A stretch of 64,000 nt of DNA from Paenibacillus andongensis (GTDB taxonomy: Bacteria; Bacillota; Bacilli; Paenibacillales; NBRC-103111). The notes below the pieces were generated by a model. The model was given only the letters and a program-made list of their open reading frames with translations, was not told the origin of the DNA and made no database searches. The stretch spans positions 6,083,001-6,147,000 of the forward strand of contig NZ_CP104467.1 of the NCBI RefSeq assembly GCF_025369935.1, written 5' to 3'. This document shows, piece by piece, positions 37,878-60,931 of the stretch (positions within the stretch are counted from its first letter, which is position 1; the number at the start of each line of letters is the position of its first letter). The position numbers and the translations under genes are program-made.

Positions 37878-37941
37878 ATTATAGGAGATTATTCACCCTA
37901 GTAGAACGGACAAACTTAAGATAACATGTGTTTTTTTACGA
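37878..37941 (-). promoter_or_regulatory. Shared-motif promoter P1 (propeller glycosidase unit)
   Basis: On the minus strand TCGTAAAAAAACACA (37941-37927) is followed after exactly 43 nt by TATAAT (37883-37878), 35 nt before the start codon. A second element, AAGTTTGTCCG, begins 9 nt after the box. No -35-like hexamer is present, as expected of an activator-dependent promoter. Confidence 0.75.
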
Positions 37942-37962
37942 ATTTAGCAAAATAAAAAACAC

Positions 37963-37991
37963 CCCTCTACTGAATACTTTCAGCATGAGGG
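37963..37991 (-). terminator. Terminator of second binding-protein gene
   Basis: On the minus strand CCCTC...GCTGAA pairs with TTCAG...GAGGG and is followed by TGTTTTTTATTTT. It lies 21 nt past the stop codon at 38013. Confidence 0.8.
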
Positions 37992-38012
37992 ATGCGTCTG
38001 GTGGAAGAGCTT

Positions 38013-39587
38013 TTATTTTGTATCGATCATAATCGCGCCTTGCTTTTTGTTCCAACGCTCGGTCGCTTCTTTAATAATTTCATTGCCGCCTTTGGCTTTA
38101 TACTCTTCGATTACCTTCGGCCAATCGGTGATTGGCTCTTTGCCGTAAATCATTTTGATCATGTGATCGATAATGATCTTCGGGCCAACGTCAGGCTGAG
38201 GAGCTGCAAGATCCGGAAATTTTGCGAAGCTGCTCAAATCAGGGTAAAACCCGATACCAGACAGACCTTCCTTCGTCAGCACTTCATCGAATGCTTTCAA
38301 GGTCGCTTTTCCATCTTCGTTCAGCAGCAGTCTTGGTTTATTGTAAGTGGAGTCATGTACCGCCCACATCGTTCCGCTGCGGAAGCCTTCTTCATCGGTT
38401 TCTTCCTTCGTCGTCGGGAATTTATACGTAATTTTGCCGCTGCTGTCCTTCGTGTAGGTATCGCCTTCGATTCCGAAGGTAAAGAAGGTTTCAGCTTCCG
38501 GAGAAACCATCCAATCAAACATTTTAATAATGCCCGCAGCGGTATCTTGCTTCACATTTTTATTAACGAAGAAGGTACGAATGACAGGTGCATAATAGAA
38601 ATACCCGCCTTTTCCTTCCGGGCCTTTTGGCGAAGCAATAATATCAACTTTTGCTCCTGGAACAGCTTGTTGGGCTTTCGTGCGGTACCCTGGTAATCCG
38701 GAAGCATTTTGAGACCAGATTCCCGCTTTGCCGGACTCAATGCTTTTCGTAAAATCAGTAGAAGTGATGGTTGCGAATTCCTTTGGTATCAAACCTTCGT
38801 CATACATTGTTTTGTACGTGGTGAGTGCCTTCTGCACATTTTCTACATCGAAAAATTTCGGGACTACTTGACCATTTACCAGCTCAAATTGATCCTTATA
38901 AGGCAAAACATCGAAAGCTCCTAGAATCACGTCTGCGTACTTGAAGTTTTCCCTCATTTGATAGGGATTCTCTACACCCATCTTTTTAAATGCTCGCAGC
39001 ACATTCAGAAATTCGTCAACGGTTTTTGGAGCTTGAAGCCCAGCCTTCTCCAACAAATCCGTACGAATGTATGTGGAACGACGGGATGGATTGCTCAAAA
39101 ATTCTGGCACGCCATAAATCTTCCCTTCATACGAAACACTATCCCAAGCTGCTTTGGGTATCACTTTTAATAAATTCGGCCCATTCTGTTTCAAAAGCTC
39201 GTCCAGCGGCATGAAAACACCGTTCTCTACTGAACCGGACATCGACTTACTGCCTGGACCACCGATACTCCCAACAACATCGGGAATATCGTTACTCGCG
39301 AACATAACGCCGAATTTGGCATCTTCCACAACCTTAACGTCCAAATCCGTATTCGTTAACTCCTCCAGTTTCAATACCCATTTATCCTTGTTTAAATCAG
39401 GTACCCGGGTATGATATCCCGTACTGACAGTCGTTGGATAGAGCATGGAGAATTTGACCGGTGCTTTCTTCACGTTGCCCGATGGCTGTGGTGAACCCGT
39501 TCCCGCTACCTTTCCATCCGAAGAACATGCGGTTAATGCAGAAGCCGTCAACACGACAGCCAGCGTAAGACTGATCGTTTTTTTCAT
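38013..39587 (-). CDS. Extracellular sugar-binding lipoprotein (second copy)
   Basis: This 524-residue family-1 solute-binding lipoprotein has a signal peptide ending in the lipobox LTAC, with Cys21 lipidated and a Ser/Asp spacer. It is an LplA/YtcQ-like protein. It is clearly paralogous to the protein encoded 846 nt upstream: long blocks such as RTDLLEKAGLQ, LGAFDVLPYK and NGQVVPKFFDV are identical or nearly so. It probably feeds the same two permeases or presents ligand to the sensor kinase. It has its own shared-motif promoter, a cre downstream of it, and its own terminator, so it is regulated separately. Confidence 0.9.
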   Translation of the reverse strand: MKKTISLTLAVVLTASALTACSSDGKVAGTGSPQPSGNVKKAPVKFSMLYPTTVSTGYHTRVPDLNKDKWVLKLEELTNTDLDVKVVEDAKFGVMFASNDIPDVVGSIGGPGSKSMSGSVENGVFMPLDELLKQNGPNLLKVIPKAAWDSVSYEGKIYGVPEFLSNPSRRSTYIRTDLLEKAGLQAPKTVDEFLNVLRAFKKMGVENPYQMRENFKYADVILGAFDVLPYKDQFELVNGQVVPKFFDVENVQKALTTYKTMYDEGLIPKEFATITSTDFTKSIESGKAGIWSQNASGLPGYRTKAQQAVPGAKVDIIASPKGPEGKGGYFYYAPVIRTFFVNKNVKQDTAAGIIKMFDWMVSPEAETFFTFGIEGDTYTKDSSGKITYKFPTTKEETDEEGFRSGTMWAVHDSTYNKPRLLLNEDGKATLKAFDEVLTKEGLSGIGFYPDLSSFAKFPDLAAPQPDVGPKIIIDHMIKMIYGKEPITDWPKVIEEYKAKGGNEIIKEATERWNKKQGAIMIDTK

Positions 39588-39614: not shown

Positions 39615-39628
39615 TGCAAGCGGTTTCA
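39615..39628. promoter_or_regulatory. cre (CcpA) site downstream of P2
   Basis: On the minus strand TGAAACCGCTTGCA matches TGAAANCGNTTNCA throughout. It lies 13 nt downstream of the -10 and 27 nt before the lipoprotein ATG, a position where CcpA blocks transcription. It fits catabolite repression of a sugar gene. Confidence 0.6.
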
Positions 39629-39641: not shown

Positions 39642-39705
39642 ATCATAACGAAAAGTTGGCGTTTCCTGTATGTATAATTTTAAGACGCTATGTCGTTTTA
39701 TACGA
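39642..39705 (-). promoter_or_regulatory. Shared-motif promoter P2 (second binding protein)
   Basis: On the minus strand TCGTATAAAACGACA (39705-39691) matches the shared 15-bp box at 13 positions and is followed after exactly 43 nt by TATGAT (39647-39642). The second element is degenerate here (AAAATTATACA). Start codon 54 nt further on. Confidence 0.65.
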
Positions 39706-40433: not shown

Positions 40434-42005
40434 TTACTGTTTCTTACCCAAAAAAAGCACGCCTTTTTTATTGTTGTAACGGTCCGTCGCTTCTTTAATG
40501 ATCTCGTTGCCGCCTTTGGATTTATACTCTTCAATGACCTTCGGCCAGTCGGAAATTGGTTCCTTGCCGTAAATCATTTTAATCATATGATCCATAATGA
40601 TCTTCGGCGCAGCATCCGAACCTGGTGAAGCAGCATCCGGATACTTGGCATCGGCCTCCAGATTAGGAGAAAAGCCAATTCCCGATAAGCCTTCTTTTGC
40701 TAAAATATGATCAAATGCATTCAGAATGTAAGGTCCATTAGGGTCTGTTTGCATTTTCAGACGGTTAACGGTACTTTCATGGGAGGAATGCAGCGTACCA
40801 CGGTGATCCTGCTCCTCTTGCTCTTCTTTGTTGGTCGGTTCCTTATACTTCACTTTACCGTCAACTACCGTGTACGTATCGCCTTCGATACCGAAAGTAA
40901 AGAACTTGAATGCTTCTTCTGACGTCATCCAGTCGAAATATTTAACGATTTCTGCGGCCGTTTCAGGCTTCACATTTTTGTTGATGTAATGAGCGCCAAT
41001 AACTGGCTGGTACATGAGATAACCGCCTTTGCCGTCAGGTCCTTTGGGAGAGGCGATGACATCAATCTTGGCATCTTTCACCGCATTCGGAACGTTCGTC
41101 CGGAAATCATTCAAGCTGACTAAGTTGGAAGACCAGATACCAACATCGCCGGAGCGGATATTTTTCAACCAATCGGTCGAAGTTGTCGTCGCGAACTCTT
41201 TGGACATCAAACCTTCATCAAACATGGTCTTGATCACGTTAAGCGCTTTTGTCATATTGTCCACATCAAAAAACTTCGGCACAACTTGACCATTTACTAC
41301 CTCGAATTGTTCTTTATAAGGCAGCACATCAAATGCCCCCAGCACGGTGTCGGCATATTTCAAGTTCTCACGAGCACCATAGGGATATTTGACGCCCATG
41401 GCCTTAAACTTTCGGAGTACATCCAGGAATTCATCGATTGTTTTAGGTGGCTGTAAACCCGCCTTTTCAAGCAAATCGGTACGAATAAACGTAGCACGTC
41501 TAGAAGGATTCTCTAACCAGTTGGGGATCCCATAAATCTTCCCATTATAGGATACGGCGTCCCATGCTTCCTTCGGCACCGTTTTCATTAAATTTGGGGC
41601 ATTTTGTTTCAGCAAGTCATCCAGTGGCAAGAACATCCCAGCTTCTACGGATCCTGACATCGCTTTATCTGTTGCTGTGCCCAAGCTGCCTACAACATCG
41701 GGAATATCATTGCTTGCGAACAAGACGCCCATCTTGCTTACTTCCGTTATTCGAAGCGTAAGGTCGGTATTCGTCAGCTCTTCCAATTTCTTTACCCATT
41801 TGTCATTGTTAATGTCAACACGCGTGTGGTATCCAGTGTTCGTCGTGGTCGGATATGAAATAGAAAACTTGGTCGGTGCCTTTTTTGCCGCTGTTGTGAC
41901 TGATGACGGCGTTGCTTGCTGCTGACCGGTTTTTCCCGTTGAACAGCCCGCTAAAGTACCTACAGACAATACAGCGACGAGTGCAACATTTGTAACTTTT
42001 TTCAA
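40434..42005 (-). CDS. Extracellular sugar-binding lipoprotein (first copy)
   Basis: This 523-residue LplA-like solute-binding lipoprotein has a signal peptide with lipobox LAGC (Cys21) and a Gly/Gln/Ser-rich spacer before the mature domain. It captures an oligosaccharide outside the cell for the two permeases encoded directly upstream (28 nt gap), so it is the cognate binding protein of the importer. It is paralogous to the lipoprotein at 38013-39587. A ribosome site (gaaagaaggg) precedes the ATG. Confidence 0.92.
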   Translation of the reverse strand: MKKVTNVALVAVLSVGTLAGCSTGKTGQQQATPSSVTTAAKKAPTKFSISYPTTTNTGYHTRVDINNDKWVKKLEELTNTDLTLRITEVSKMGVLFASNDIPDVVGSLGTATDKAMSGSVEAGMFLPLDDLLKQNAPNLMKTVPKEAWDAVSYNGKIYGIPNWLENPSRRATFIRTDLLEKAGLQPPKTIDEFLDVLRKFKAMGVKYPYGARENLKYADTVLGAFDVLPYKEQFEVVNGQVVPKFFDVDNMTKALNVIKTMFDEGLMSKEFATTTSTDWLKNIRSGDVGIWSSNLVSLNDFRTNVPNAVKDAKIDVIASPKGPDGKGGYLMYQPVIGAHYINKNVKPETAAEIVKYFDWMTSEEAFKFFTFGIEGDTYTVVDGKVKYKEPTNKEEQEEQDHRGTLHSSHESTVNRLKMQTDPNGPYILNAFDHILAKEGLSGIGFSPNLEADAKYPDAASPGSDAAPKIIMDHMIKMIYGKEPISDWPKVIEEYKSKGGNEIIKEATDRYNNKKGVLFLGKKQ

Positions 42006-42033
42006 AAGAATCCCTTCTTTCCAAATGAAAATA

Positions 42034-42903
42034 TTAGGATTTCACTGAACCCACCATCATCCCTTGGATAAAGTGCTTTTGCAGGAACGGATATACACAA
42101 AGGATCGGGATCGTAGCCACGACAATGACCGCCATCTTAATCCCTTCCGGTGATAGTAAAAGCATTAGTTCCGAAGATACATCCGATTGCCCCATCTGAT
42201 CTGTAAATACAATTTCTCTTAACCGAACCTGCAGCGGAATCCAATTGCGATGATCAATATAAAAGACAGCCTCGGCATAACGGTTCCAATGACCCACCGC
42301 ATACATGATGCCCATTGTAGCCATAGCAGGTTTAGAAAGCGGCAATACAATATTCCACAATATCCGAAACTCTCCGCACCCGTCAATTCTTGCCGAATCC
42401 AGCAGCTCCGTCGGTAGGTTCAGGAAGAATGAACGCATAACGAATAAATTAAAAGCGCTTATCGCCATAGGTAGCATTAAAGCCCATAGCGTATTAAGAA
42501 GCCCTAATTGCTTCACCAACAAATAGTTCGGAATTAATGGCGCGCTGAAAATAAGAGTAAACAGCACCATCACCAGAATGGATTTGCGGAACAAATACTC
42601 AGGTCTGGATAAAGGATACGCAAGCGTTGTTGTCATAAAAAGATTAATCAAGGTTCCAAATACCGTAATAATGACACTATTCCGAAACCCAATCCATATC
42701 GTTGGGTCCTGTAAAATAAGTTTATAACTCCCCAGTGTGAAACCAACTGGCCACAACGATACCTTACCCGCATTAATGGCCGTGTTATTGCTTAATGACT
42801 GCGCAATAATGTGAATAAGGGGAAGCACCATGCTGAGTCCGATGATACCTAACAAAATGACATTGAACAAATTAAAAATTTTATGACCTCTTGTCATAAT
42901 CAT
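42034..42903 (-). CDS. Sugar ABC importer permease, LplC type
   Basis: This 289-residue inner-membrane protein has six membrane helices and the cytoplasmic coupling loop DSARIDGCGEFRILWNIVLP (the EAA-type loop that contacts the ATPase). It pairs with the LplB-like permease upstream to form the channel of a carbohydrate uptake (CUT1) transporter. No ATP-binding gene is present, so a shared MsmX-type ATPase elsewhere must power it. A ribosome site (gaggtg) lies 8 nt before the ATG, and the gap to the upstream permease is 28 nt. Confidence 0.93.
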   Translation of the reverse strand: MIMTRGHKIFNLFNVILLGIIGLSMVLPLIHIIAQSLSNNTAINAGKVSLWPVGFTLGSYKLILQDPTIWIGFRNSVIITVFGTLINLFMTTTLAYPLSRPEYLFRKSILVMVLFTLIFSAPLIPNYLLVKQLGLLNTLWALMLPMAISAFNLFVMRSFFLNLPTELLDSARIDGCGEFRILWNIVLPLSKPAMATMGIMYAVGHWNRYAEAVFYIDHRNWIPLQVRLREIVFTDQMGQSDVSSELMLLLSPEGIKMAVIVVATIPILCVYPFLQKHFIQGMMVGSVKS

Positions 42904-42931
42904 AGCGATTCACCTCCCGTCTCCTTCCGTA

Positions 42932-43888
42932 TCAATACAAACCTTCTCCGGTCAGCTTTTTACTAAACGTATTACTGATCATGATCAACATAAGACCCAC
43001 AACCGACTTGAACAATCCGATGGCCGTCGTGTAGCTGTATTGCCGATCAACAAGTCCTGCCCGGTACACAAACGTATCGATAATCTCCCCATTCTCATTG
43101 TTAAGCGGGTTAAGAAATACGAAGACGCGTTCGAAACCGAAATCAAGAAAATTACCGATATGAAGCAGGAATAAAATAACAATGGTTGGTAAGATACTTG
43201 GAATCGTGATGGAGAACACTTGACGAATCCGGCTGGCTCCATCAATTTGTGCAGCTTCATACAGATCGGGATTGATGCCGGCAATCGCAGCCAAATAAAT
43301 GATGGTGCCCCAACCGCTATCCTTCCACACGCCAGAACTGATGAGAATGGTCCGAATATAGGTGTTTTCCCCTAGAAAATAAATGGGCTCGACGCCAAAT
43401 AAAGATAGCAAATGATTGACGATTCCCGTGGAAGGCGATAATACCCCAACGACGACTCCACCGACGATTACCCATGATAGGAAGTGCGGCATATAAACCA
43501 CGGTTTGAACAATTCGCTTATACATCATAACGCGCACTTCATTGATGAGAAGAGCCAGAATGATCGGAACCGGGAAAGCGAAGATCATATCGTATATACC
43601 GATTAATATCGTATTTTTCAATATCTGAAGGAAATCTGTATACGCGAACATGCGTTGGAAATTTTCTAAACCTACCCACTTACTTCCTTTAATTCCTTTG
43701 AAAATGTTGTAGTTTTGAAACGCGATGACGGAACCGAATAACGGGATATATTTAAAAAGTAAGAAATAAATGATTCCCGGTAATGAAATCACATAAATCG
43801 GCCAATGTTTTCGGACAAAAGCCCATTTCTGACTCTTCGATGTGAAATCGTAAACTAATCGATCGGATGGCTGAATTTTACTGGCCAT
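42932..43888 (-). CDS. Sugar ABC importer permease, LplB type
   Basis: This 318-residue permease has six membrane helices after a cytoplasmic head (MASKIQPSDRLVYDF...), with the coupling loop EAAQIDGASRIRQVFSITIP. It resembles LplB/YteP of Bacillus polysaccharide-fragment importers. The start at 43888 follows GGGGAGG 5-6 nt upstream; the longer frame to 43933 includes that ribosome site and is rejected. It is the first gene of the lplB-lplC-binding-protein unit, which has its own shared-motif promoter in the gap behind the amidohydrolase gene. Confidence 0.93.
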   Translation of the reverse strand: MASKIQPSDRLVYDFTSKSQKWAFVRKHWPIYVISLPGIIYFLLFKYIPLFGSVIAFQNYNIFKGIKGSKWVGLENFQRMFAYTDFLQILKNTILIGIYDMIFAFPVPIILALLINEVRVMMYKRIVQTVVYMPHFLSWVIVGGVVVGVLSPSTGIVNHLLSLFGVEPIYFLGENTYIRTILISSGVWKDSGWGTIIYLAAIAGINPDLYEAAQIDGASRIRQVFSITIPSILPTIVILFLLHIGNFLDFGFERVFVFLNPLNNENGEIIDTFVYRAGLVDRQYSYTTAIGLFKSVVGLMLIMISNTFSKKLTGEGLY

Positions 43889-43931: not shown

Positions 43932-43995
43932 ATCTTACTAGGGTTGTCCGGAGGTAGCGATGGTGAAACTTATAGCGCTTTGTGTTTTTTTACGA
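43932..43995 (-). promoter_or_regulatory. Shared-motif promoter P3 (importer unit)
   Basis: On the minus strand TCGTAAAAAAACACA (43995-43981), identical to the P1 box, is followed after 43 nt by TAAGAT (43937-43932), 43 nt before the permease start. The second element reads AAGTTTCACCA. The box lies only 14 nt after the amidohydrolase stop, so it is a true intergenic promoter and not part of that gene. Confidence 0.72.
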
Positions 43996-44009: not shown

Positions 44010-45209
44010 TTAACGAGCGACTCCATAGCGCTTAGCTGCACTGCTGTGCAGCCAATTCTCAGCAACAAATAAGGCCGTGTCATACTCAATCCAGCCTGCT
44101 TCGATTTGCCCCCACAGGAAATCACTCACAATCCGTTTGACAAGCAAAATTTTGCCGTAGCTCCACTCCATACAGCGGGCATCGGATACAATGAGCGAGC
44201 TTTTGATGGCCGGAAGCGCTTCTAACCGGTACTGCATACTATCTCGGTATGTACTTGCCCGAAAGTTAAACCACCAATGTCCGCCCACATGAACATTCGG
44301 AAAGTTCCATGCCGCTTGCACAATATCCAGATTGTTTAGCTCCGAGGCCACCACAAGCTCGAAGGTACAAGCATAGGCTTCAAACAAGGCAGATAGCTTC
44401 AAGATACGGGCCGGGTCATTGACCGGGGTGGCTGTTCCACACCAGGAACGTTCCACACCGAGAAACAACTGAATAAGAAGTCCCCTCTGCTCAGCTGCAG
44501 AGCCTAATTCGTGCAGAAGCATCATCAAAATCTCATCCTTGGTGCTGCCTTGCCCAATCACAACCTTGCGGTTCGCCCTGGTTTCATAGCTCGGCAATGT
44601 GGTCATGATGCCCACGTAACCGGCTTCCTTGTACTCGTCGAGTAGTTGCTTAAGCTTCTCACGCGCTTGAGCGAATGCCTCAGCCGGGTTATGCGACAGC
44701 TCAACTTCTTTGACCCACCCGCCTAATTTACCGTCAATTCGCGGGATAAGGATGGCGTTCTCCCGCATGCCTTGGAACTCCGCATGCTCGGGTATATTCA
44801 CCACGAACCTGCTAACGTTCATACGGTCCGCGACTTCTTGCGCCCATGTAGCGCTTTGTGCGGTCTCTTTGACAGCAGCGTCGGCTTTCCGTACGGAGGC
44901 AGCGTCGCTGATTTCAATGCCATATAGATTTTTGAAAATTTGAGTCAACACCACATTCATCATCGTGTTTCTTGATCCATGGTACGCTTCCAAAAAGGCA
45001 GCGATTCGTATATCCTCTGGGAGCTCCATGGCATTCGCCGGATATCCCGCAGCCTGCAGCTCGCGAAACAACCAGAAATAATGCGCAATCTCCCAAAAGT
45101 CGCTGGCACAGAGGCGATCCCCCACAAGGTGGGTGTGCGTATCCAATACAGGCAGCTGCATGATACGTTCCTCAAACGCTTCCTTGACGTGTCTCATCTC
45201 CGTATTCAT
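44010..45209 (-). CDS. Uronate-isomerase-like amidohydrolase
   Basis: This 399-residue cytosolic metal-dependent enzyme of the amidohydrolase superfamily resembles the UxaC/glucuronate isomerase branch. An N-terminal metal site VLDTHTHLVGD (about residues 20-30), the core GGHWWFNF, and a C-terminal SDARCMEWSYGK with the conserved Asp all fit that branch. It may isomerise a uronic acid or hydrolyse a related lactone released from the imported oligosaccharide. True uronate isomerases are usually longer (about 460 residues), so the activity is uncertain. A very strong ribosome site (ggaggagg) precedes the ATG. It has its own shared-motif promoter. Confidence 0.72.
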   Translation of the reverse strand: MNTEMRHVKEAFEERIMQLPVLDTHTHLVGDRLCASDFWEIAHYFWLFRELQAAGYPANAMELPEDIRIAAFLEAYHGSRNTMMNVVLTQIFKNLYGIEISDAASVRKADAAVKETAQSATWAQEVADRMNVSRFVVNIPEHAEFQGMRENAILIPRIDGKLGGWVKEVELSHNPAEAFAQAREKLKQLLDEYKEAGYVGIMTTLPSYETRANRKVVIGQGSTKDEILMMLLHELGSAAEQRGLLIQLFLGVERSWCGTATPVNDPARILKLSALFEAYACTFELVVASELNNLDIVQAAWNFPNVHVGGHWWFNFRASTYRDSMQYRLEALPAIKSSLIVSDARCMEWSYGKILLVKRIVSDFLWGQIEAGWIEYDTALFVAENWLHSSAAKRYGVAR

Positions 45210-45242: not shown

Positions 45243-45306
45243 ATGGTACAATGGTTGCTCAATCTGTTCCATGGGATAACTTCCGCTCGGTTGTGGTTTT
45301 TTATGA
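45243..45306 (-). promoter_or_regulatory. Shared-motif promoter P4 (amidohydrolase)
   Basis: On the minus strand TCATAAAAAACCACA (45306-45292) is followed after 43 nt by TACCAT (45248-45243), 33 nt before the start codon. The second element reads AAGTTATCCCA. The -10 is weak on its own, in keeping with activator dependence. Confidence 0.65.
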
Positions 45307-45372: not shown

Positions 45373-45470
45373 CTGTTCCATAATTTGTATAAACAAAAAG
45401 AAACCACCCCCATGAAATGGAAGTGTCGAAATGGTATCTCCTTTACATTCATTCCTCAATTGGACTGTTT

Positions 45471-47051
45471 CTAGCCGTGCAAACCTCCTGCCAATCGGGG
45501 GGAATGGCGATAAGGTCCAACCGGGATTTGGATTAGGCTGGTTATCCCTATCGGAGGCATCTTGTAGATCTCATCACACAATCTGGCATCAAAACCTAGG
45601 AGCGGATGCCCCCCCATCCCGAGAGCGGATGCCGCCAACAGTAAGCGCTGCACGAGCATCCCCGCCTCCATCTGTTGGATGCGGTATCCCCTAAACCCCA
45701 GGGCCGATACGTGATGATCCCTGTTCCCCGCCACATGAAAGCATAACGGAACTTGAAAGAGATTCACGTTGTCGGAAGGCATTCCCTGCTGCAGCCTGAG
45801 CCGATGATCACCATGACGTATTCGCCGTAACGTATGAGCAGCGCTGTCATAATGATAAGCACCGTCCGGGATGCCCTCAACGTTATACAAACAGCCGTAC
45901 AGCGAAACGCGTGAAACGAGGTTCTCTTGATCTCCATCCAAATCATTCCGATAATTGAAGGATGCCGTTGCCTCCTGCAGCAGCAAGGCCAGCTGTTCTA
46001 GGCTAACCTTGCTCATAACAAAATCACCGTCCGGCGAAAAACGTTTTCGGCTTACGGACGCCAGATCATACAATAACCGCTTTACACGGGGCAGAGCCAC
46101 TGCTTGATCCTCGCCGTGAAAGATCTTCTCTTCCCCAATTCGCCGTAACGGCCGAAGAGATTCCAATAGGGAAGCTTCGTTCATCTTGATTAACATCGGA
46201 AACTCCTTAACCCTCCGGGACCGTATGTAGTGATCATGCTTAACTATTGTCAACTCCCGGCATAATTCGGCGGCAGAGCCTTCCCCCTCATCCGCATTCC
46301 TATTGGCAAACCAAGAGATCGCAGGTTCCACCGACAGCGGAATTACCGCATACACGCTCTCCTCTTGTTCCGATACTCCAAGGAGATGATTCACAGCCCG
46401 ATCAAGGAACTGGAAATACACCCCGGACGCAAAGCCGAACCGCTTTGCCACTTCCAAGAGCTGCCCAATCAATGCACCAGCATCCAGTCCTTGCAGTCGG
46501 TAGGAAAAGTTATTGTATTTAAAGAAGTTTTTCCAAAACATGGTCGATACAAAAACAGTACCAAAGCAAGCCGACACGTCACATCGATTGCCAAGAGCCC
46601 GAGCCAAAAATGAATCGAAGTTGCCTTCGCGCAGCAACACTAAACGATGGTGCGCCACATCATAATGATATACCCCCGAGGGCAAATCCTCCAGCTTCAG
46701 ATACACGTATAATTCATTCGGATATAGCGCTCCGCCTGAGGGAACAAACCGCCGATACAACTGCATCAAGCCCATGTTCGGTACCATGGAATTCGAGGCA
46801 GGGACTGACTGGGACAATTGAGTGAGCCCGTATATGTACCAGAGAAAATGACCCATACGGCGAAGGTCAGGCAGCACTTGCGCTTCACCGCCTTCTAACG
46901 TTAGCGGTACTTCCGGAGATAACGGAACCACAGGCAAACCGCGATAGAGCTTATACGCAAGTGGTCCGTCATCCCAATCCACCACCAAGTCCGGTGGTTT
47001 GGTCTTGTCAATATCATAATGCAGATTGTGCAGAAATGCCTCCAGATTCAT
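45471..47051 (-). CDS. SagB-type azoline dehydrogenase (double nitroreductase)
   Basis: This 526-residue FMN-dependent protein has two nitroreductase-fold halves, about residues 90-265 (FVPSGGALYPNELYVYL, GVYHYD) and 330-515 (SRVSLYGCLYNVEGIPDGAYHYD, RLLLAASALGMGGHPLLG). This matches SagB/ThcOx dehydrogenases that oxidise thiazolines and oxazolines to aromatic azoles in thiazole/oxazole-modified peptides. It is the last gene of the cluster, 165 nt after the YcaO gene. A strong ribosome site (gaggaggg) precedes the ATG. Its substrate should be the Cys-rich precursor at 51317. Confidence 0.9.
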   Translation of the reverse strand: MNLEAFLHNLHYDIDKTKPPDLVVDWDDGPLAYKLYRGLPVVPLSPEVPLTLEGGEAQVLPDLRRMGHFLWYIYGLTQLSQSVPASNSMVPNMGLMQLYRRFVPSGGALYPNELYVYLKLEDLPSGVYHYDVAHHRLVLLREGNFDSFLARALGNRCDVSACFGTVFVSTMFWKNFFKYNNFSYRLQGLDAGALIGQLLEVAKRFGFASGVYFQFLDRAVNHLLGVSEQEESVYAVIPLSVEPAISWFANRNADEGEGSAAELCRELTIVKHDHYIRSRRVKEFPMLIKMNEASLLESLRPLRRIGEEKIFHGEDQAVALPRVKRLLYDLASVSRKRFSPDGDFVMSKVSLEQLALLLQEATASFNYRNDLDGDQENLVSRVSLYGCLYNVEGIPDGAYHYDSAAHTLRRIRHGDHRLRLQQGMPSDNVNLFQVPLCFHVAGNRDHHVSALGFRGYRIQQMEAGMLVQRLLLAASALGMGGHPLLGFDARLCDEIYKMPPIGITSLIQIPVGPYRHSPRLAGGLHG

Positions 47052-47216
47052 GCTTCTCCCTCCTCATACAAGGATAAACGACTTCGTCGTCAATTAAGGA
47101 CGAGCGCGTTTGTCAAGGTTGATGCGAAGCAAAAAGTATAAAACTTATACTTTCTTATCAACTGAACGAGGTTGTGAACCACTCCACGTTTCGATATTTG
47201 ATACCATAGTTAAAAC

Positions 47217-51738: not shown

Positions 51739-51778
51739 AAAAGGAGCCTAGCCATGTGTAACTGGCTGAGCTCCTTTT
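51739..51778 (-). terminator. Terminator of Cys-periodic protein gene
   Basis: AAAAGGAGC pairs with GCTCCTTTT, with AGCCA/TGGCT inside. On the minus strand the stem is followed by TTTTCTATTTTC. It separates the 206-residue protein gene from the precursor gene. Confidence 0.85.
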
Positions 51779-51838
51779 GCTTTTCGTTTTTGCGGAATTA
51801 CAACACGGAGGGTGTATGACTTTTTTAGCTATTTTAAA

Positions 51839-52611: not shown

Positions 52612-53619
52612 TCAATGTGCTAGATTCTTTCCCCCAAGAATTTGATCGATAAGATCCAATTCTTCTTGCGTGAAGGTAGGCTGCTTCAAGGCTGCCACAT
52701 TATCATCAAGCTGACTCACTTTACTTGCCCCGATTAATGCGGAGGTAACGTATCCCTTGCGAAGGACCCATGCTAGAGCCATTTGGGCAAGACTTTGCCC
52801 GCGTTCCGATGCTAATTTATTCAGAAGTCGAGACTTGGCAATCTTCTCTTCGGTAATATCCTCAGGTCGCAGGAACACACTGCCACCTGCAGCACGGGAG
52901 TCCGCCGGAATGTTCTCCAAATAACGGTCCGTCAGAAGTCCTCTGGCTAGCGGACTATAAGCGATGGACCCCACACCTTCTCTTGCCAAAATGTCTTGCA
53001 GACCCTGCTCCAACCGTCTTTCGAACATCGAATAGTGTACTTGATGAATGATGAACGGAGTACCGAGACCTTTCAATATAGCTGCTGCTTGCTCCGTTTG
53101 CTCCGCATTGTAATTGGAAACACCCACATACAGCGCTTTTCCCTGCCTCACAGCCTGATCCAAGGCACCCATCGTTTCTTCCAGAGGCGTCTCAGCGTCG
53201 AAACGGTGCGAATAATAAATATCGACATAGTCCATGCCTAGCCGTTTCAAGCTCTGGTCAAGGCTGGCGAGCATGCTTTTGCGGGAGCCCCGCTCCCCAT
53301 AAGGACCTTCCCACATGCGATAGCCTGCTTTGGTTGCAATAATCAGCTCATCACGGTATGGCTGAAGATCCTTCTTCAGAATTTGTCCGAACGTTTCCTC
53401 CGCTGAGCCAGCTGTTGGACCATAATTATTCGCCAAATCAAAATGGGTAATCCCCAAATCAAACGCATGGCGCGCCAGAGCCCTGCTGTTCTCGAATAGA
53501 TCGACACTTCCAAAATTGTGCCATAATCCGAATGAGATCGGAGGCAGCTTAAGGCCGCTCTTTCCGCTTCGGTTATAAGGCATTTCTGCATATCTTCCTT
53601 CATTAGCTAAATAGTTCAT
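52612..53619 (-). CDS. Aldo/keto reductase, YghZ-like
   Basis: This 335-residue NADPH-dependent TIM-barrel reductase resembles L-glyceraldehyde-3-phosphate reductases (YghZ). It has the N-terminal SGLKLPPISFGLWHNFG, catalytic Asp/Tyr (DLANNYGP, about residues 54-61), Lys in IATKAGYRMW, and His in DIYYSHRFD. It probably reduces an aldehyde or ketose formed in the sugar pathway of the operon. The start at 53619 follows taggagg. It is the last gene of the GH4-MATE-GH36-cupin-GH36-like unit, 35 nt after the previous stop. Confidence 0.9.
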   Translation of the reverse strand: MNYLANEGRYAEMPYNRSGKSGLKLPPISFGLWHNFGSVDLFENSRALARHAFDLGITHFDLANNYGPTAGSAEETFGQILKKDLQPYRDELIIATKAGYRMWEGPYGERGSRKSMLASLDQSLKRLGMDYVDIYYSHRFDAETPLEETMGALDQAVRQGKALYVGVSNYNAEQTEQAAAILKGLGTPFIIHQVHYSMFERRLEQGLQDILAREGVGSIAYSPLARGLLTDRYLENIPADSRAAGGSVFLRPEDITEEKIAKSRLLNKLASERGQSLAQMALAWVLRKGYVTSALIGASKVSQLDDNVAALKQPTFTQEELDLIDQILGGKNLAH

Positions 53620-53654
53620 CGATGATCCTCCTAATGTGCGTGCCATTTTTAGTT

Positions 53655-55433
53655 CTATAAGATAGAGATGGTTGCGAGGCCCGAGGCCGGAATCGCAAGC
53701 TTATGAATGCCTGATGTTAGCGTGGCAGTCAGCTCCTCCACAATGTCTCCGCAGCAATTTTTAATAATCACTTTCGCAGCTCCAATTTCACCAGTAACCT
53801 CTAGATAGAGTCCATCCTGTCTTCTGCCGTTCACCACGATCCACTGGGACAGCGGCACCCCTGCATCTATAGGCACAATTCGCTCATGATAAGCTACCAT
53901 AATCCCTCTATCCTCTTTAAAAGCACGGACTAGCGGATACAACAGCTCCGGATTCAAAGGCTCAATACGACCGTCTAATAGCAAATCACGGTTCTCCTTC
54001 CAGAAGGAAAGCCAATATTCGAGCATCTTCAAATGGTTGGAAGGCAGTTTATCCAAGAGGACGGATACTTGAGGCACAGAAAACAGACAGTTAATCAACT
54101 GTAAAGCGGCGCTTTCCACGGGTTCCTCCGGGTGCCACATGATCATATCGGCATGAGCGGCCGTATCTCCGCAGATTAGCCTGATGTCCAGCGTCCGCAC
54201 TCGGTTTTGGATACTGTCGTTCGGACAATCGGATGCACGGAACATATTGCCGTATTTGCGCATGGCAGGCCCGATATACATTTGGCGGAATTCAATCATG
54301 ATATCGGGATTCAATTCTCTCAATCTGCCGATTGAGTCCGTCAATAGGCGGTCCACAGCTTCCGGTATGGACTCATAATCCTTGCCGGGGACAGTTGAGG
54401 GAAGCTGCAGCTCAGGTGAATAGAACGTATCAATGAAATCAAGCTTGAAGCCGTCCAAGCCCCATTCTTTTACCGCCGCTTCATATTTATTAATGATATA
54501 CTCCCGGACATCTGGGTACCTCGGATCGAGCACGGCTGCTCCGTGATTTTCGTTAAATCGCAGAATCTTATTACTGAAGCGATCCCACACCTTACTGTAT
54601 TTGCCGATAAAAGGAACCGAGTACCAGAGGATAAACTTCATGCCTAGCTCATGAACCGCATCGACATGCCGCTTCATATCGGGGAATTTGCCCTCATAAG
54701 TCTCCCAATCGCCGCAATACGCATACCCCCTGCGGTTATCTTCCGTCTGCCAGCCATCATCCACGATAACGGCTTCCATCCCCAACGTCTTAGCGATTCG
54801 GCACTGCGCTTCGATATGTTTATCTGTTACATTTTGGTGCATACTGTACCAGGTCGAATACATCGGTTCCTTGGCAGCCACAGGAACGAACGCTGGACGA
54901 TATTCCGGCATCGCGCTCCACCACTCTTGAACACCCTGAAGGCTTTCATAATATGGAACATCTCTCGTATCTACGAGAAGCTTCGCCTCATAGGAAGTGA
55001 ATGACGCCGTCGTTTCTGTAAACAATTGGACGCGGCAATGGAAATCAGCCGTTTCCTCGCTTATGCCTCCCGAGTAGTGAACCGTATTAAGTGCATCCGA
55101 ATAAGCAAATGTCAGCCTATTGCGGCCCTCCGCATTAAACAAGGCGTAAACAGGAGCCGACGCAGCCGCATTGGAACGTAAAGTGCGCATCCAATCGGCC
55201 TTAAAGCTCTTATTCCGGTCCTGGGCCGGATGCCAACTTCCCTGTATGTCACAAGCGGGATGCGACCATTGAAGTGTTAAAGCGGGAGGCGTCAGCGCCT
55301 CCACCGCTTCCAATTGCAGCGAGATGAGATCGATTCCCTCCTGCAGCTTTTTCGTAGAAAGCGTGACGGCAAACCCATGATCCTCGCCCGATAAAGTAAA
55401 GGTATGGGAATCCGTCGCTATGATTTTGTTCAT
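53655..55433 (-). CDS. GH36-like alpha-galactosidase
   Basis: This 592-residue cytosolic protein has an N-terminal beta-sandwich (about 1-185) and a TIM barrel (about 190-500). It has EAVIVDDGWQTED, a nucleophile region DGFKLDFIDTF and an acid/base candidate RASDCPNDSIQNR, as in a GH36/clan-D enzyme. It is shorter and more divergent than the second GH36 enzyme of the operon and may act on a different alpha-galactoside or related alpha-linkage. The ATG overlaps the cupin stop by 4 nt. Confidence 0.82.
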   Translation of the reverse strand: MNKIIATDSHTFTLSGEDHGFAVTLSTKKLQEGIDLISLQLEAVEALTPPALTLQWSHPACDIQGSWHPAQDRNKSFKADWMRTLRSNAAASAPVYALFNAEGRNRLTFAYSDALNTVHYSGGISEETADFHCRVQLFTETTASFTSYEAKLLVDTRDVPYYESLQGVQEWWSAMPEYRPAFVPVAAKEPMYSTWYSMHQNVTDKHIEAQCRIAKTLGMEAVIVDDGWQTEDNRRGYAYCGDWETYEGKFPDMKRHVDAVHELGMKFILWYSVPFIGKYSKVWDRFSNKILRFNENHGAAVLDPRYPDVREYIINKYEAAVKEWGLDGFKLDFIDTFYSPELQLPSTVPGKDYESIPEAVDRLLTDSIGRLRELNPDIMIEFRQMYIGPAMRKYGNMFRASDCPNDSIQNRVRTLDIRLICGDTAAHADMIMWHPEEPVESAALQLINCLFSVPQVSVLLDKLPSNHLKMLEYWLSFWKENRDLLLDGRIEPLNPELLYPLVRAFKEDRGIMVAYHERIVPIDAGVPLSQWIVVNGRRQDGLYLEVTGEIGAAKVIIKNCCGDIVEELTATLTSGIHKLAIPASGLATISIL

Positions 55434-55804
55434 ACGGCGTCCTCCTGCTGTTGATTCTTATGACGATTCGGGCCTGCATGGCACCACACGGTGACAATCG
55501 GATCCTCCGTACTTGAATTGAGGTGATGATCCTCGCCGGGTTCAACAATCACGATATCCCCGGTAATAACCGGAATATGCTCCCCGTTAATTTCCATCGT
55601 TCCGGTTCCCTGCAAAATAAGGAACGCTTCACAATCCCCGTGGACATGATAGTCTCTTCCATCCGGTCCATCGTTCGTATGACTGCGCTCTCCCCGTTTC
55701 GCGAAAGAAAGACCGCCTGAAGATAAATAAGCACCTGGTAATACATCCTGCAAAATGTGGCCGTTCTTCTTATCCTGCAAATCGCTCAAACGCAGCTTTT
55801 TCAT
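55430..55804 (-). CDS. Cupin-domain protein
   Basis: This 124-residue single cupin has metal-ligand motifs DYHVHGDCEAFLILQGTG (His-His-Glu) and PGEDHHLN (His). In sugar operons such proteins are isomerases, mutarotase-like or sugar-sensing proteins; the exact role is not visible. It starts 4 nt after the GH36 stop and its own stop overlaps the next gene (ATGA). Confidence 0.85.
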   Translation of the reverse strand: MKKLRLSDLQDKKNGHILQDVLPGAYLSSGGLSFAKRGERSHTNDGPDGRDYHVHGDCEAFLILQGTGTMEINGEHIPVITGDIVIVEPGEDHHLNSSTEDPIVTVWCHAGPNRHKNQQQEDAV

Positions 55805-55808
55805 CTTG

Positions 55809-58019
55809 TCATTCCTCCATTTTTAAGCGGTAAAGGCGGCTTCGGAAATCGCCTTTCCAGATCGGTAAATTTAGACCCAAATGCATGAGCTCATCCCCGC
55901 CAAAGATTTCCACACCATCGTCTTGGTTTTCCGCATCGTATAGTATGTAATTACTCTCTGCCAATAAGCCCTTTAATCGCAGTTTTCTGAGAGGCGCGTT
56001 CGGCTCCGACAGCACTTGAAAAAAAGCGACTAACGCTTCCTTCTTATCCTCGGAAACAAACATCCAAGCAGCACTAACGTGTTCAAAAGGGCTGATCAAT
56101 CGGTAAAATTCGCCGAATTGGATCAAAGGCCGCAATTGTTTATAAAGCGCAACTTGCTTCTTCACGGCTTCCTTATCCGCTTCCGTAAATGCGGTTAAAT
56201 CCAGCTCATAGCCGAAGTTACCCGACATCGCGACATTCCCCCGCATATCGAGCGGGGTCGTACGATGCACCTGATGGTTAGGAACTGCGGAAACATGCGC
56301 GCCCATCGTGCTGATTGGATATACAATACTCGTTCCATATTGAATTTTCAGCCGTTCAACGGCATCGGTATTATCGCTCGTCCACGTCTGCGGCATATAG
56401 TAGAGCATCCCAGGATCGAACCGTCCGCCACCGCCTGAGCAGCTTTCGAACAACACATTCGGGAATGCCGAGGTTATCCGCTCCATCACTTCGTAAAGTC
56501 CGAGCATATACCGATGCGCCGTCTCACGCTGCCGCTCTGGCGGGAGCTGGGCGGAACCGATTTCCGTCATATTGCGGTTCATATCCCATTTCACATACGT
56601 GATAGGGCTGCTCGCAAGTATATCGGTAATGACCGTAACGATGTAATCTCTTACATCTTGGCGAGAATAATCGAGAATCAACTGCTGCCTCGCTTCGGTC
56701 CTCCGGCGGCCTGGCACGTGCAGGCACCAGTCAGGATGGGCCCGATACAGGTCGCTATCCGGAGATACCATCTCAGGCTCAAACCATAGACCGAACTCCA
56801 GCTCCTGCTGCTTCACACGGGTTACCAAATCTGGCATGCCTTGTGGGAGCTTGTTACGATCAACGAACCAATCTCCGAGTGAGCTTTTATCGTTGTCACG
56901 CTTGCCGAACCAACCATCGTCCAGCACGAGAAGTTCTAAACCGAGCTCCTTGCCGACTCGCGCAAGCTCTTCAATTTTATCCGCGTTGAAATTAAAATAA
57001 GTAGCTTCCCAGTTGTTGATGAGAATCGGCCTATGACGATCGCGGAATTGTCCACGGCATAACCGTGTGCGATACAGCTTGTGATACGTGCGCGACATCC
57101 CTCCGATGCCATCCGCGGAATAGACGAGAACCGCCTCCGGCGTTTGGAAGGTTTGCCCTGGCTCCAAGAGCCAAGAAAAATCAAACGAGTTGATGCCCAT
57201 CACCACGCGCGTCGTTCCGTAAGGATCCACTTCGGCTTGAGCAACAAAGCTGCCGCTGTAGACAAGACTGAATCCATAGGCTTCTCCTTGGTCTTCATTC
57301 GCTTGCTTGGAAAGCAGAGCCATAAAGGGGTTGAGCGAATGGCTGCTGGATCCCCGACGGCTTTCAATCACAGACCCGCCTGTTAGAATGGGGCGTCTTT
57401 CGATATGACGCTCACGCGCCCATGTGCCTGATAAATGAAGCATATCGAAATCGCACCGGGAGATATCGATACCGAAGCTCAGTGCTCGAAGCAGCTTGAT
57501 CGACTGATAACCCACATTCATGAACCGAACAGACCGAGTTATCGCATCCAAATCGCGAAATACAGTATACGTGAGAACGACCTTCAACCCGATCGTCGAA
57601 TCGATCAACACGATATCGATACTCTCCGCTTCGCTGTCATCCTCCGTATAGGTGGACGGCAGTCCCTCTAACCGCGCTTTTCCCGAATAAATCCGGTGAG
57701 ACTCATAGACGAGTTCGCTGACCGTCGTCCCGTTTTCCAACTGAACCTGATAGGCCGGAACGCGAAAATCACTTCCTCCGTACGCCGGAAATTCCTGCGG
57801 CAATGTGTCCAAAGACAGCGTTAGATCACTTGGGTCCGTGGACGGCGAGAAAGAGCAGCGACGTCTAATAGCGAGTAAACTTCCCGGATTCGTTCCCCGT
57901 ATTTGGCGGCCCCAATGAACGTGAGCCAAATATTTGGATTTGATCAGTTGCATGATATAGCTCGACGACTTCCCTTGAAGATGGAAAGTTTGCGAATTCG
58001 AATCAAACACAATCCCCAT
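55809..58019 (-). CDS. Alpha-galactosidase, GH36
   Basis: This 736-residue cytosolic GH36 enzyme is close in length and motifs to AgaA/RafA-type alpha-galactosidases. It has LLVLDDGWFGKRDND, a nucleophile in YVKWDMNRNMTE, a substrate loop in ESCSGGGGRFDPGML, and an acid/base in TSDNTDAVERL, plus a C-terminal beta-domain. It retains configuration and removes terminal alpha-galactose from raffinose-type sugars or galactomannan fragments. The start at 58019 follows AAAGGAG; the longer frame overlaps the MATE gene and that ribosome site. The operon context suggests alpha-galactoside catabolism. Confidence 0.95.
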   Translation of the reverse strand: MGIVFDSNSQTFHLQGKSSSYIMQLIKSKYLAHVHWGRQIRGTNPGSLLAIRRRCSFSPSTDPSDLTLSLDTLPQEFPAYGGSDFRVPAYQVQLENGTTVSELVYESHRIYSGKARLEGLPSTYTEDDSEAESIDIVLIDSTIGLKVVLTYTVFRDLDAITRSVRFMNVGYQSIKLLRALSFGIDISRCDFDMLHLSGTWARERHIERRPILTGGSVIESRRGSSSHSLNPFMALLSKQANEDQGEAYGFSLVYSGSFVAQAEVDPYGTTRVVMGINSFDFSWLLEPGQTFQTPEAVLVYSADGIGGMSRTYHKLYRTRLCRGQFRDRHRPILINNWEATYFNFNADKIEELARVGKELGLELLVLDDGWFGKRDNDKSSLGDWFVDRNKLPQGMPDLVTRVKQQELEFGLWFEPEMVSPDSDLYRAHPDWCLHVPGRRRTEARQQLILDYSRQDVRDYIVTVITDILASSPITYVKWDMNRNMTEIGSAQLPPERQRETAHRYMLGLYEVMERITSAFPNVLFESCSGGGGRFDPGMLYYMPQTWTSDNTDAVERLKIQYGTSIVYPISTMGAHVSAVPNHQVHRTTPLDMRGNVAMSGNFGYELDLTAFTEADKEAVKKQVALYKQLRPLIQFGEFYRLISPFEHVSAAWMFVSEDKKEALVAFFQVLSEPNAPLRKLRLKGLLAESNYILYDAENQDDGVEIFGGDELMHLGLNLPIWKGDFRSRLYRLKMEE

Positions 58020-58042
58020 AATTCCGCGTCTCCTTTTATGTA

Positions 58043-59425
58043 TTAAACCTTTAGATGTTTCCAAGTACCGCGCTTGAACCTAAAATAAATCAAATTAGAC
58101 CTAAGAAATTGATCACAAGCAACGGCACTCCATAAACCGATCATGCCCCAATGAAAGATATAAACAAATAAATAACTAAGAACAACCCTTATTCCCCACA
58201 CGCCAATGAATGTCGAATATAAGGGATAGCGAGTATCTCCTGCTCCTCTTAAAGCTCCTCCAAGTACAAACTGCGATATTTGAGATACCTGGATAAATCC
58301 TACGATCCGAAGAGCCCAAGCCCCTTCACGAATAATCGTCTCATCATTCGTATATAGCATGAGGATAAGAGGAGCGAACAAGATGAATAGCGTTCCCATA
58401 AATCCAGCCACGAACATGCCGTACTTTCTGACTTGCCACACATATCGTTCAGCGAGGTCGGGTTTGCTTACGCCAAGTGTTTGCCCAACTAGCGTAGAAG
58501 CTGCGATGGCAAAAGCAGCCCCCGGCATAAACGAGATCCCGATAATGCTCGTTACAATTTGTGATGCCGCGACAGCAACCGTCCCCAGTCCAGCACAAAT
58601 TTTCACAAACGTCATAATCCCTAAACGCATAATGAGCTGCTCCAGACTGCTCGGAATCCCTATCTTCAACATGCGTCTGATCATAACCTTATCCAACCGA
58701 GTTATATCCGACAAACCGATGCGGACTGCAAATCTTCCGCTGAACATAACGGCTATAAAGCAAATCATAGCTCCTGTCTGAACTACTAAGGTGGCGATTG
58801 CCGCCCCCGTAATGCCCATTTGCGGAAAATCGAGGTGACCGTAAATCAGCACGAATCCGAGGCTCACATTGACGCCCCCTGACAGCACGTTGATTTTCAT
58901 CGGAGTCCGTGTATCTCCTGCACCTCGCAGAATAGCGGATAATGCAGACGAGATAGAGGAGAATCCAATGGAGAAAAACATTAACTTCGCATATGACATT
59001 CCATATTGCACGACCTCAGCACTGGCTCCCATCAAATGGAGCATGCTCTTCGCAAAGGTGACGCCGAGCGTAACAATAAGGACAGACAGGACGGTACCGA
59101 GCAGAAGCGACTGCCCTGCGGCCAGATTCGCGTCCTCCATCTTTCCCGCTCCCGTGGAACGGGCTACGATAACCGTTGTTCCTGTATTTAGCGCTGCAAA
59201 AAGGACGGTCAATAATAAATAAGGTTGGCTTGTTAAGCCCACAGCTGCTACCGCAATGGCCCCAAGGTGTCCGACCAGGATCATCATCACCATTTGGGTC
59301 ATATTCATGAGCAGCATTTCCGTCAAAGATGGACCTGCCAGTTTGAAAATCATCCGGCGAACAGCCTTTTCATCCTGCGGATCAATGGAGGCGGATTCAC
59401 TGAATAACTCTAACCCTGCACTCAT
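58043..59425 (-). CDS. MATE-family transporter
   Basis: This 460-residue integral membrane protein has about twelve helices in two homologous halves of the MATE type (MTQMVMMILVGHLG; LRGAGDTRTPMKIN and ALRGAGDTRYPLYS mark the repeats). MATE proteins export cationic compounds in exchange for Na+ or H+. Its place inside a sugar-hydrolase operon is unusual; it may export a sugar-derived or toxic aglycone. The start at 59425 is 13 nt after the GH4 stop. The ribosome site is weak, so translation is probably coupled. Confidence 0.85.
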   Translation of the reverse strand: MSAGLELFSESASIDPQDEKAVRRMIFKLAGPSLTEMLLMNMTQMVMMILVGHLGAIAVAAVGLTSQPYLLLTVLFAALNTGTTVIVARSTGAGKMEDANLAAGQSLLLGTVLSVLIVTLGVTFAKSMLHLMGASAEVVQYGMSYAKLMFFSIGFSSISSALSAILRGAGDTRTPMKINVLSGGVNVSLGFVLIYGHLDFPQMGITGAAIATLVVQTGAMICFIAVMFSGRFAVRIGLSDITRLDKVMIRRMLKIGIPSSLEQLIMRLGIMTFVKICAGLGTVAVAASQIVTSIIGISFMPGAAFAIAASTLVGQTLGVSKPDLAERYVWQVRKYGMFVAGFMGTLFILFAPLILMLYTNDETIIREGAWALRIVGFIQVSQISQFVLGGALRGAGDTRYPLYSTFIGVWGIRVVLSYLFVYIFHWGMIGLWSAVACDQFLRSNLIYFRFKRGTWKHLKV

Positions 59426-59438
59426 GGCCGGCCCGCCA

Positions 59439-60824
59439 TCAGATATTCCATCCAGGCAAATACGCTTTCGTATTTTGCAGCATTCGATCAAACAATACTT
59501 CCGCATCGTTGATATCGATATTCACAAGCGGATCGTTCATAAATGCCTTGAAAGCTAAGTCTTTGTCCTTTTGAAGAGCCGCCTTCAAAATAAGCTCCTG
59601 ATTCATCGTATGCTGCAAGACCAGATTACCCACTTCCATCGGAAGCTCACCCGCATAGACTGGACGCAAACTGTTCGCTGAGAATACAGCGTTCGTTTCT
59701 ACAACCGCTCCCAGAGGAATTCCCTTCATTTGTCCCACGTTGGGAACGTTAATATTGGTTACGAATTGTTCAAGTCCGATTAGACCTTTTAACTGTCTGA
59801 CCTCTTCTTCTCCTGATGCCTTGAGCGGCAGCTTCTCCTCGGAACGTAGCAGCTTCCCGTAAAAAAGCTCTGTTGCCGCCTGCTTTTCAACACGACTTTG
59901 GACCGTCGTTAAGCCGAACTTCCATGATCGAACCGTCTCCGGATCTTTCAAATACCAAGGAGGCATGAATTCCGCCAAATGGCGATCACCTGCCGCTGCA
60001 ATAACGCCATAGCGCCGAAACAAATCAAACTTCACGCGGTTAGCGGCCGTATACGTGTTCGTGACCCAGGCATCTTTGTTGTGCTCAAATCCGGATTCAT
60101 AGTACTTATCAACAAACTTCCGATACATCGGAAATAAATCCATATTTTGATACGTCGCTTGATCGATCCAAGTAAAATGATTAATACCCAGCACATTCAC
60201 CTTCACTTGATCGCGCGTTACACCCTCAATCCCTTCCATATCGCGCAGCATACGAATCAAAAGCCCTTGCGCACCGAATATCTCATGGCAGCATCCAAGT
60301 GCTTTTATTTTTGGAAACACTTCAAAAAGCGTCCGCGTACAGAGTGTCATTGGATTCGTGTAATTAAACACCCAGGCATTCGGTGAAAAGCGCTCAATCG
60401 CTTGCGCGATTTCCACATACATGGGAATGGTGCGCAGTGCTCTGACAAGACCCCCAGGTCCAGTCGTATCGCCAACGGCTTGATAAATGCCGTATTTTTC
60501 CGGTTCATGCACATCGGATTCCATCTCCCGGAATGTGCCAGGAAGTATCGAGATAAACACAAAATCGCATCCGCTAAGCGCCTCTTGGAGCGTCGGATAC
60601 GCCTTGTAAGTCCATTTGGATTTCGTTTCCGCATAATCGGAAACCGAGTTTCCCAGCTTTTCATTATTTTTGGCCTTGCTGTAATCAAGGTCGTACAAAC
60701 GAACAGTGCCCGACAATTGACCATCAAGCGCCAGATCGGCAATCAGATTTTTCGCCCAATACATCGAGCCTCCACCAATATAAGCGATTTGGATATCGCT
60801 GACTTTCTCATTAGCAAATTTCAT
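59439..60824 (-). CDS. GH4-family NAD-dependent glycosidase (CHEI type)
   Basis: This 461-residue enzyme of family 4 cleaves glycosides by an NAD+/Mn2+ oxidation-elimination mechanism. It has the Rossmann motif AYIGGGSMYWAKNL, the metal motif GCCHEIFG, and the INHFTWI segment. The CHEI form of the metal motif separates it from 6-phospho-beta-glucosidases (CNVP); in this family CHE forms are linked with alpha-glucosidic or alpha-galactosidic activity. The start at 60824 follows AAGGAGG. It is the first gene of the second sugar operon and carries shared-motif promoter P5. Confidence 0.9.
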   Translation of the reverse strand: MKFANEKVSDIQIAYIGGGSMYWAKNLIADLALDGQLSGTVRLYDLDYSKAKNNEKLGNSVSDYAETKSKWTYKAYPTLQEALSGCDFVFISILPGTFREMESDVHEPEKYGIYQAVGDTTGPGGLVRALRTIPMYVEIAQAIERFSPNAWVFNYTNPMTLCTRTLFEVFPKIKALGCCHEIFGAQGLLIRMLRDMEGIEGVTRDQVKVNVLGINHFTWIDQATYQNMDLFPMYRKFVDKYYESGFEHNKDAWVTNTYTAANRVKFDLFRRYGVIAAAGDRHLAEFMPPWYLKDPETVRSWKFGLTTVQSRVEKQAATELFYGKLLRSEEKLPLKASGEEEVRQLKGLIGLEQFVTNINVPNVGQMKGIPLGAVVETNAVFSANSLRPVYAGELPMEVGNLVLQHTMNQELILKAALQKDKDLAFKAFMNDPLVNIDINDAEVLFDRMLQNTKAYLPGWNI

Positions 60825-60867
60825 ATTGCCCCTCCTTCTTGTCTTGGAACCGTCTTGCATACGTACC

Positions 60868-60931
60868 AGTATAGAAAACAATTCCACATTGCGGGATGGC
60901 AAAAATTAAGTCATGTTGTGGTTTTTTACAC
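60868..60931 (-). promoter_or_regulatory. Shared-motif promoter P5 (GH4 operon)
   Basis: On the minus strand GTGTAAAAAACCACA (60931-60917) differs from the P4 box only in its first three bases and is followed after 43 nt by TATACT (60873-60868), 43 nt before the GH4 start. The second element reads AATTTTTGCCA. This ties the second sugar operon to the first locus 15 kb away. Confidence 0.68.

Follow-up and report, generated by a model that had tools for sequence, protein, structure and literature searches.

At araBAD, the AraC operator I1-I2 consists of two half-sites, the proximal of which overlaps the -35 element. To our knowledge, the targets and operators of the YesMN-type pairs of Paenibacillus genomes (sensor kinase YesM, response regulator YesN) are mostly not known. 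We analyzed a 64,000-nucleotide stretch of the Paenibacillus andongensis genome (assembly GCF_025369935.1, contig NZ_CP104467.1, positions 6,083,001 to 6,147,000; hereafter the window), in which five promoters of a sugar locus, P1 to P5, carry a common two-part site composed of a distal half (box1) and a proximal half (box2) ahead of a -10 hexamer. Most likely, the YesN encoded in the locus uses this site to turn the locus on. Like I1-I2, it has two half-sites with the proximal one by the -35 position; unlike AraC, YesN is a response regulator, and box2 stops before the -35 slot, whereas the proximal AraC half overlaps it.

In the accessible part of PMC8579813, predicted sites of AraC-type two-component regulators in Caldicellulosiruptor bescii are tandem repeats with large spacers, located upstream of mapped promoters and read as activator sites. 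In both cases, sugar transporter loci have a local two-component regulator whose DNA-binding domain is of the AraC type; the C. bescii sites belong to another genus and other regulators, and the likeness is one of description, not of sequence. AraC-family rhamnose regulators predicted in Bacillales (PMC3870299, available in part) have direct repeats with a 21-bp period, close to the 20-21 bp between the two halves here and in both cases about two helix turns; they are described for rhamnose genes and not as YesN response regulators, and they are likened here by period and not by motif letters. Pneumococcal YesN and RR07 are also YesN-type response regulators; the available portion of PMC11034029 gives no clear repeat for that YesN, and its candidate for RR07, CTWWWWWWAG, is unlike the present operator. 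The Ruminiclostridium systems CuaDSR (PMC10384115) and XydS/R (PMC3572039) likewise couple a sensor kinase to an AraC-type response regulator that switches on sugar or hemicellulase genes. However, the accessible parts of both papers describe no defined two-part operator of the kind found here, with repeats noted for XydR and no consensus (PMC3572039). A literature search for the operator of a Paenibacillus YesN-type regulator found none, subscription papers being mostly beyond reach. On the best reading, the operator described below would be an AraC-type (YesN) activator operator, which is new as a defined site but belongs to a kind already known.

All five sites were located on the minus strand with one layout: box1 at offset 0-14, five free bases, box2 at offset 20-34, 23 free bases and the -10 at offset 58. 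P1 comprises box1 at 37927..37941, box2 at 37907..37921 and the -10 TATAAT at 37878..37883. The corresponding elements of P2 lie at 39691..39705, 39671..39685 and 39642..39647 (TATGAT), those of P3 at 43981..43995, 43961..43975 and 43932..43937 (TAAGAT), those of P4 at 45292..45306, 45272..45286 and 45243..45248 (TACCAT), and those of P5 at 60917..60931, 60897..60911 and 60868..60873 (TATACT). The five boxes, the 43-nt gaps and the -10 hexamers listed in the initial annotation of this DNA were thus all recovered. That annotation had also seen a second element in P1, P3, P4 and P5, just where a -35 should be. The element was present in these four promoters, and P2 has one as well (TCTTAAAATTATACA); it occupies offset 20-34 in every site, and its 3' end abuts the 17-bp-spaced -35 slot, ending just before it. 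The distance from the start of box1 to the start of box2 was 20 bp in 5/5 sites, about two helix turns. A TTGACA-like -35 was sought 15-19 bp from the -10, and the best hexamer had no more than 3/6 matches, in agreement with the earlier statement that no -35 is present. Box and second element form a single 35-bp two-part operator in all five promoters.

The full operator was specific to this locus. When each site was scored with a matrix made from the other four, 0/127,872 non-site window positions scored as high as any site. The exact box expression matched 12 times in the 7.64-Mb genome, five of these being P1-P5. For a full-length search we used a 36-bp profile, R1, of 26 operators (5 from the window and 21 from same-genus orthologous promoters; -10 left out), whose strings were hand-picked from 48 distinct operators plus P4 and P5 with doubtful ones omitted. 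R1 retrieved P1 to P5 from the genome at 29.8, 27.7, 30.2, 25.9 and 25.9 bits, respectively (E 4e-6 to 9e-5), scores that are circular since R1 contains these sites. The gap to the next match is not circular: the sixth-best match reached 15.5 bits (E 0.18), about 10 bits below the five. The regulon is local in this genome, with five sites on one strand in one neighbourhood. The claim that the arrangement is very unlikely by chance was borne out, as the leave-one-out test had no rival in the window and the full profile found just these five genome-wide. Box2 at offset 20 was also sought beside 25 of the 132 one-mismatch box matches other than P1-P5 and was found at none; with the second element placed at offset 21, L001 (L and G numbers are our labels for regions and genomes) scored 6.7, a value at about the 99.9th percentile for positions of the window, but it has no fitting -10.

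Orthologous regions from 21 same-genus genomes were collected and their genes annotated by tblastn with 18 window proteins, and the upstream region of each gene was scanned. The conservation sets contained 18 distinct sequences for P2, 17 for P3 and 10 for P4 (window included), all with 20-bp-spaced sites; the P2 sites of L108-L111 and the P3 sites of L106 and L108 were left out. In these sets, box1, box2 and the -10 were 93-100% conserved, while the 30 bp upstream of the sites were 52-53% conserved, the five bases between the boxes 71-86% and the 23-bp spacer 72-78%; box2 of P2, P3 and P4 is thus kept in orthologs. In L096-L107, which have no GH43 gene at its place, the site stood ahead of the next gene, GFO, in 10/12 (exceptions L105 and L107). 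The upstream scan did not detect a P4 site in L101-L103, L105-L107, L109 and L110.

A two-block scan, which the initial annotation had proposed as a check, was run with the pattern TCGTAAAAAAACACA-N41-46-TAWRAT, blind to box2, over a public genome collection in which 84,980 species are represented by a single genome each. It matched 61 stretches, 49 of them named Paenibacillus, Cohnella, Gordonibacillus or (two) Bacillus sp. A homolog (at least 45%) of the locus was held by 47 of these 49 Paenibacillaceae-type stretches versus 0 of the other 12. Twenty of the 49 came from genomes already used for training or for the orthologous regions; among the remaining 29, a homolog was held by 27. The non-pathogenic P. 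alginolyticus DSM 5050 is one of the carriers of the locus. The site was mostly just ahead of the homolog, as 47/50 sites lay at most 350 bp ahead of a co-directional one, which was the first permease (35), GFO (4), YesN (3), SBP1 (3) or GH43 (2). When box2 was scored with a matrix from the window sites only, the median was 10.5 in related sites versus 1.2 in unrelated matches.

The spacing of the parts was also informative. The gap from box1 to the -10 was 43 in 24 collection sites, 44 in 24 and 45 in two, the gap-43 sites being nearly all from the window's genus. The fixed 43-nt gap reported earlier therefore holds for the five window sites but not as a law, because relatives span 42-45. In the 48 distinct sites, box1 and box2 were 20 bp (30 sites), 21 bp (16) or 19 bp (2) apart. 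The distance from box2 to the -10 was constant in 39 of these, and in 15 of the 22 distinct gap-44 sites box2 was shifted along with the -10, indicating that the position of the proximal half is mostly held constant relative to RNA polymerase.

The occurrence of the site followed that of YesN. One set of 104 family genomes was searched both with R1 (E<=0.05) and for YesN homologs (E<=1e-110), and the motif was present in 47/58 genomes with a YesN homolog versus 6/46 without. Within the genus, the motif was found in 22/22 genomes with the homolog, a count that includes the R1 training genomes and the window's own genome, versus 3/8 without; outside the training genus the values were 25/36 and 3/38. 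Among the out-of-genus motif matches listed, 18/33 had a YesN homolog no more than 10 kb away, and the site stood directly ahead of yesN in L176, L177, L180, L182 and L184. This co-occurrence supports the earlier suggestion of the YesN-type regulator as the natural candidate, and YesN is likely the activator of an activator-type regulon. Two further sites were observed at another locus of a same-genus genome (L190, 3711-3743 and 10713-10747), ahead of the gene for a 2,261-aa protein, whose domains are of the Ig-like, carbohydrate-binding, cohesin and dockerin types, and of an ABC permease gene; they are likely an extension of the regulon.

Taken as a whole, the best explanation, to which we give a probability of roughly 0.8, is that the neighbouring YesN uses each site as its operator and acts as a class II activator. 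YesM would perceive an extracellular sugar signal and phosphorylate YesN, and two YesN DNA-binding domains would occupy the half-sites at about -70 to -56 and -50 to -36. Of these, the distal half, which is the better conserved, would be filled first, and activation would bring occupation of the weaker proximal half. Because its distance from the -10 is nearly constant, the subunit bound there could contact sigma region 4 and replace the missing -35. The predicted targets are transporter genes (P2, P3), glycosidases (P1, P5) and an isomerase-like enzyme (P4); through P1, yesN-yesM would also be targets, giving positive feedback. Some AraC-type proteins are repressors, and YesN might bind these sites to repress or to serve as an antirepressor. 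We consider this very unlikely, since the sites have an operator upstream of the core promoter, no -35 and a proximal half in phase with the -10, a layout read as that of an activator for AraC-type regulators in the available part of PMC8579813.

Several observations limit these results or count against the YesN reading. Allowing one mismatch, the box alone gave 137 matches in the genome versus 147 for the reversed control, showing no enrichment; with up to two mismatches it gave 13 in the window versus 10.3 +/- 2.9 in shuffles. The box is also A-rich, so that it could be an UP element or a chance likeness of A-rich promoter DNA. This was the least probable of the alternatives and was rejected on uniqueness, phasing and the conservation footprint: full sites occur five times only in 7.64 Mb, non-A letters such as ACA are invariant and the second half has a set place, the site is conserved over diverged flanks, and box2 or the locus was found in 0/12 unrelated matches. 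The orientation of the halves was less clear. Their likeness as direct repeats at offset 20 was equalled by 80/20,000 column shuffles and their inverted likeness by 2,007, and a 12-column inverted register that sets the A-run on a T-run scored slightly above the best direct register; direct repeats are only moderately supported. A palindromic operator was disfavoured, as full-box inverted similarity was not above shuffles, though the short inverted register scored well. In the relatives, the P2 sites of L108-L111 were degenerate (scores 9.0-19.4), and the upstream scan found no P3 site in L106.

The remaining adverse points concern the link to YesN. The motif was missing at E<=0.05 (strict filters) from 11/58 YesN-bearing genomes, and these counts share ancestry, making p-values a guide only; 15/33 of the out-of-genus motif matches listed were not near a YesN homolog; and three same-genus genomes had the motif without the homolog (G009, G023 and G028). 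Another regulator, encoded elsewhere, might bind the operator, with yesN a mere neighbour and itself a target. The 6/46 motif-bearing genomes without a YesN homolog fit such a regulator, association is not binding, and in L188, whose genome has no close homolog of this YesN, a good site with TATAAT (4033-4065) precedes genes of the GH2 and GH88 types. We regard it as unlikely, because the motif follows YesN across genera, the first genes behind it vary but always belong to loci with or near YesN, and yesMN are the sole regulators seen in the conserved neighbourhood. The strongest exception, G009 (L187), proved to be a decaying copy of the locus in which the operator is intact and gives a strong motif match, GFO is in two pieces and YesN is matched over residues 6-103 only, which leaves G023 and G028 as the exceptions in the genus. 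A last difficulty came from eleven paralog regions (L112-L122) whose YesN proteins are 43-58% identical, one of them 51%. R1 matched at E<=1 in L114, L115, L117, L119 and L121 and had no match at that threshold in the other 6/11 (L112, L113, L116, L118, L120 and L122), and the motif-less regions have much the same helix-turn-helix (HTH).

In the first HTH, whose compared residues we take to be the recognition helix, most motif-bearing homologs have TPTYFSSLFKK or a near variant of it, and the 43-46% paralogs L053-L057 and L191 have NPSYFSQLFKQ or a near variant. R1 found nothing within 1.5 kb of L053-L057 or of L191-L193. The helix alone is no predictor of the motif, because L058-L060, L118, L120 and L122 keep much of it and have no motif nearby. 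In the window's own genome there is one full-length YesN paralog at 45%, the next ones being 30-31% identical. One motif for all YesN proteins was not reached, the own-genome paralogs being distant and nothing lying near L191-L193.

The genes of the locus are all on the minus strand. The yesN-type response regulator gene (32604..33662; receiver and AraC HTH, Pfam Response_reg and HTH_18) more likely starts at 33623, because alignments with homologs often begin only at residue 8-14; the C-terminal part of the protein matches solved AraC-type domains (AraC 2k9s; response regulator 6swi). The yesM-type sensor kinase gene (30772..32607) encodes Pfam Cache, HAMP and His_kinase domains. Both lie in the P1 operon (28472..37842; gaps -4 to 40 bp), which consists of GH43-like, GFO/IDH, GH31, yesN, yesM and GH95 genes. 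The P2 gene (38013..39587) encodes a solute-binding lipoprotein-like protein with a weak NCBIfam match to a substrate-binding protein and no Pfam match; its place and layout are homologous to those of the second solute-binding protein. The P3 operon (40434..43888) encodes two permeases and a solute-binding protein. Three-component sensing would have a solute-binding protein bind the sensor kinase, and the locus encodes two such proteins. The P4 gene product (44010..45209) is a distant glucuronate-isomerase-like protein (22.1 bits, far under the curated cut-off), and a terminator-like stem lies ahead of P4 at 45405-45425 (12 such sites in the window versus 8.0 +/- 2.7 in shuffles). The P5 operon (52612..60824) contains genes for GH4, MatE, GH36, a cupin, a melibiase-like protein and an aldo/keto reductase (AKR). 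Judged by gene spacing (gaps -68 to 40 bp), P5 would drive GH4 to AKR and P1 would drive GH43 to GH95, including yesN-yesM.

A thiazole/oxazole-modified peptide cluster is located within the sugar locus at 45471-52459, also on the minus strand, and encodes a SagB-type dehydrogenase, a SagD-type YcaO protein, a thiazole-bacteriocin maturation protein and a Cys-rich 206-aa candidate precursor. The five promoters had been taken to join two loci. This was not upheld, since relatives hold the P4 gene and the P5-operon genes together as one locus, which is split here by the cluster; in L101-L103, L105 and L107-L110 the P4 gene adjoins AKR-GH36b-cupin-GH36. A relative of the SagB-type dehydrogenase was seen at the same place in L093.

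Just past the P2 -10, at 39615..39628 on the minus strand, is a cre-like site (TGAAACCGCTTGCA), called with what we take to be the cre consensus. A cre-like sequence occupied the same place in the 17 ortholog P2 leaders listed. Because P2 also carries this site, CcpA may shut P2 off on preferred sugars. The window has a further exact cre-like match, located outside the sugar locus (954-967, minus strand).

For one YesMN pair, an operator, a promoter geometry, the full site set of one genome and a cross-species footprint are combined here. The YesN targets, the class II geometry and the feedback loop are now directly testable, and the site may be a template for other YesN operators. More tentatively, there may be a Paenibacillaceae YesN subfamily with a common asymmetric operator grammar. 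Regulators that share only 53-71% identity would recognize its near-invariant distal half (TCRTAAAAAAACACA) in the same way, its degenerate proximal half would be in step with the -10 while the half-to-half distance floats by 1-2 bp, and phosphorylation would gate the proximal step only. All these parts together are somewhat doubtful, and we set the odds lower because of the paralog regions without the motif. If this grammar holds, the operators of many uncharacterised YesMN pairs would be readable from sequence.

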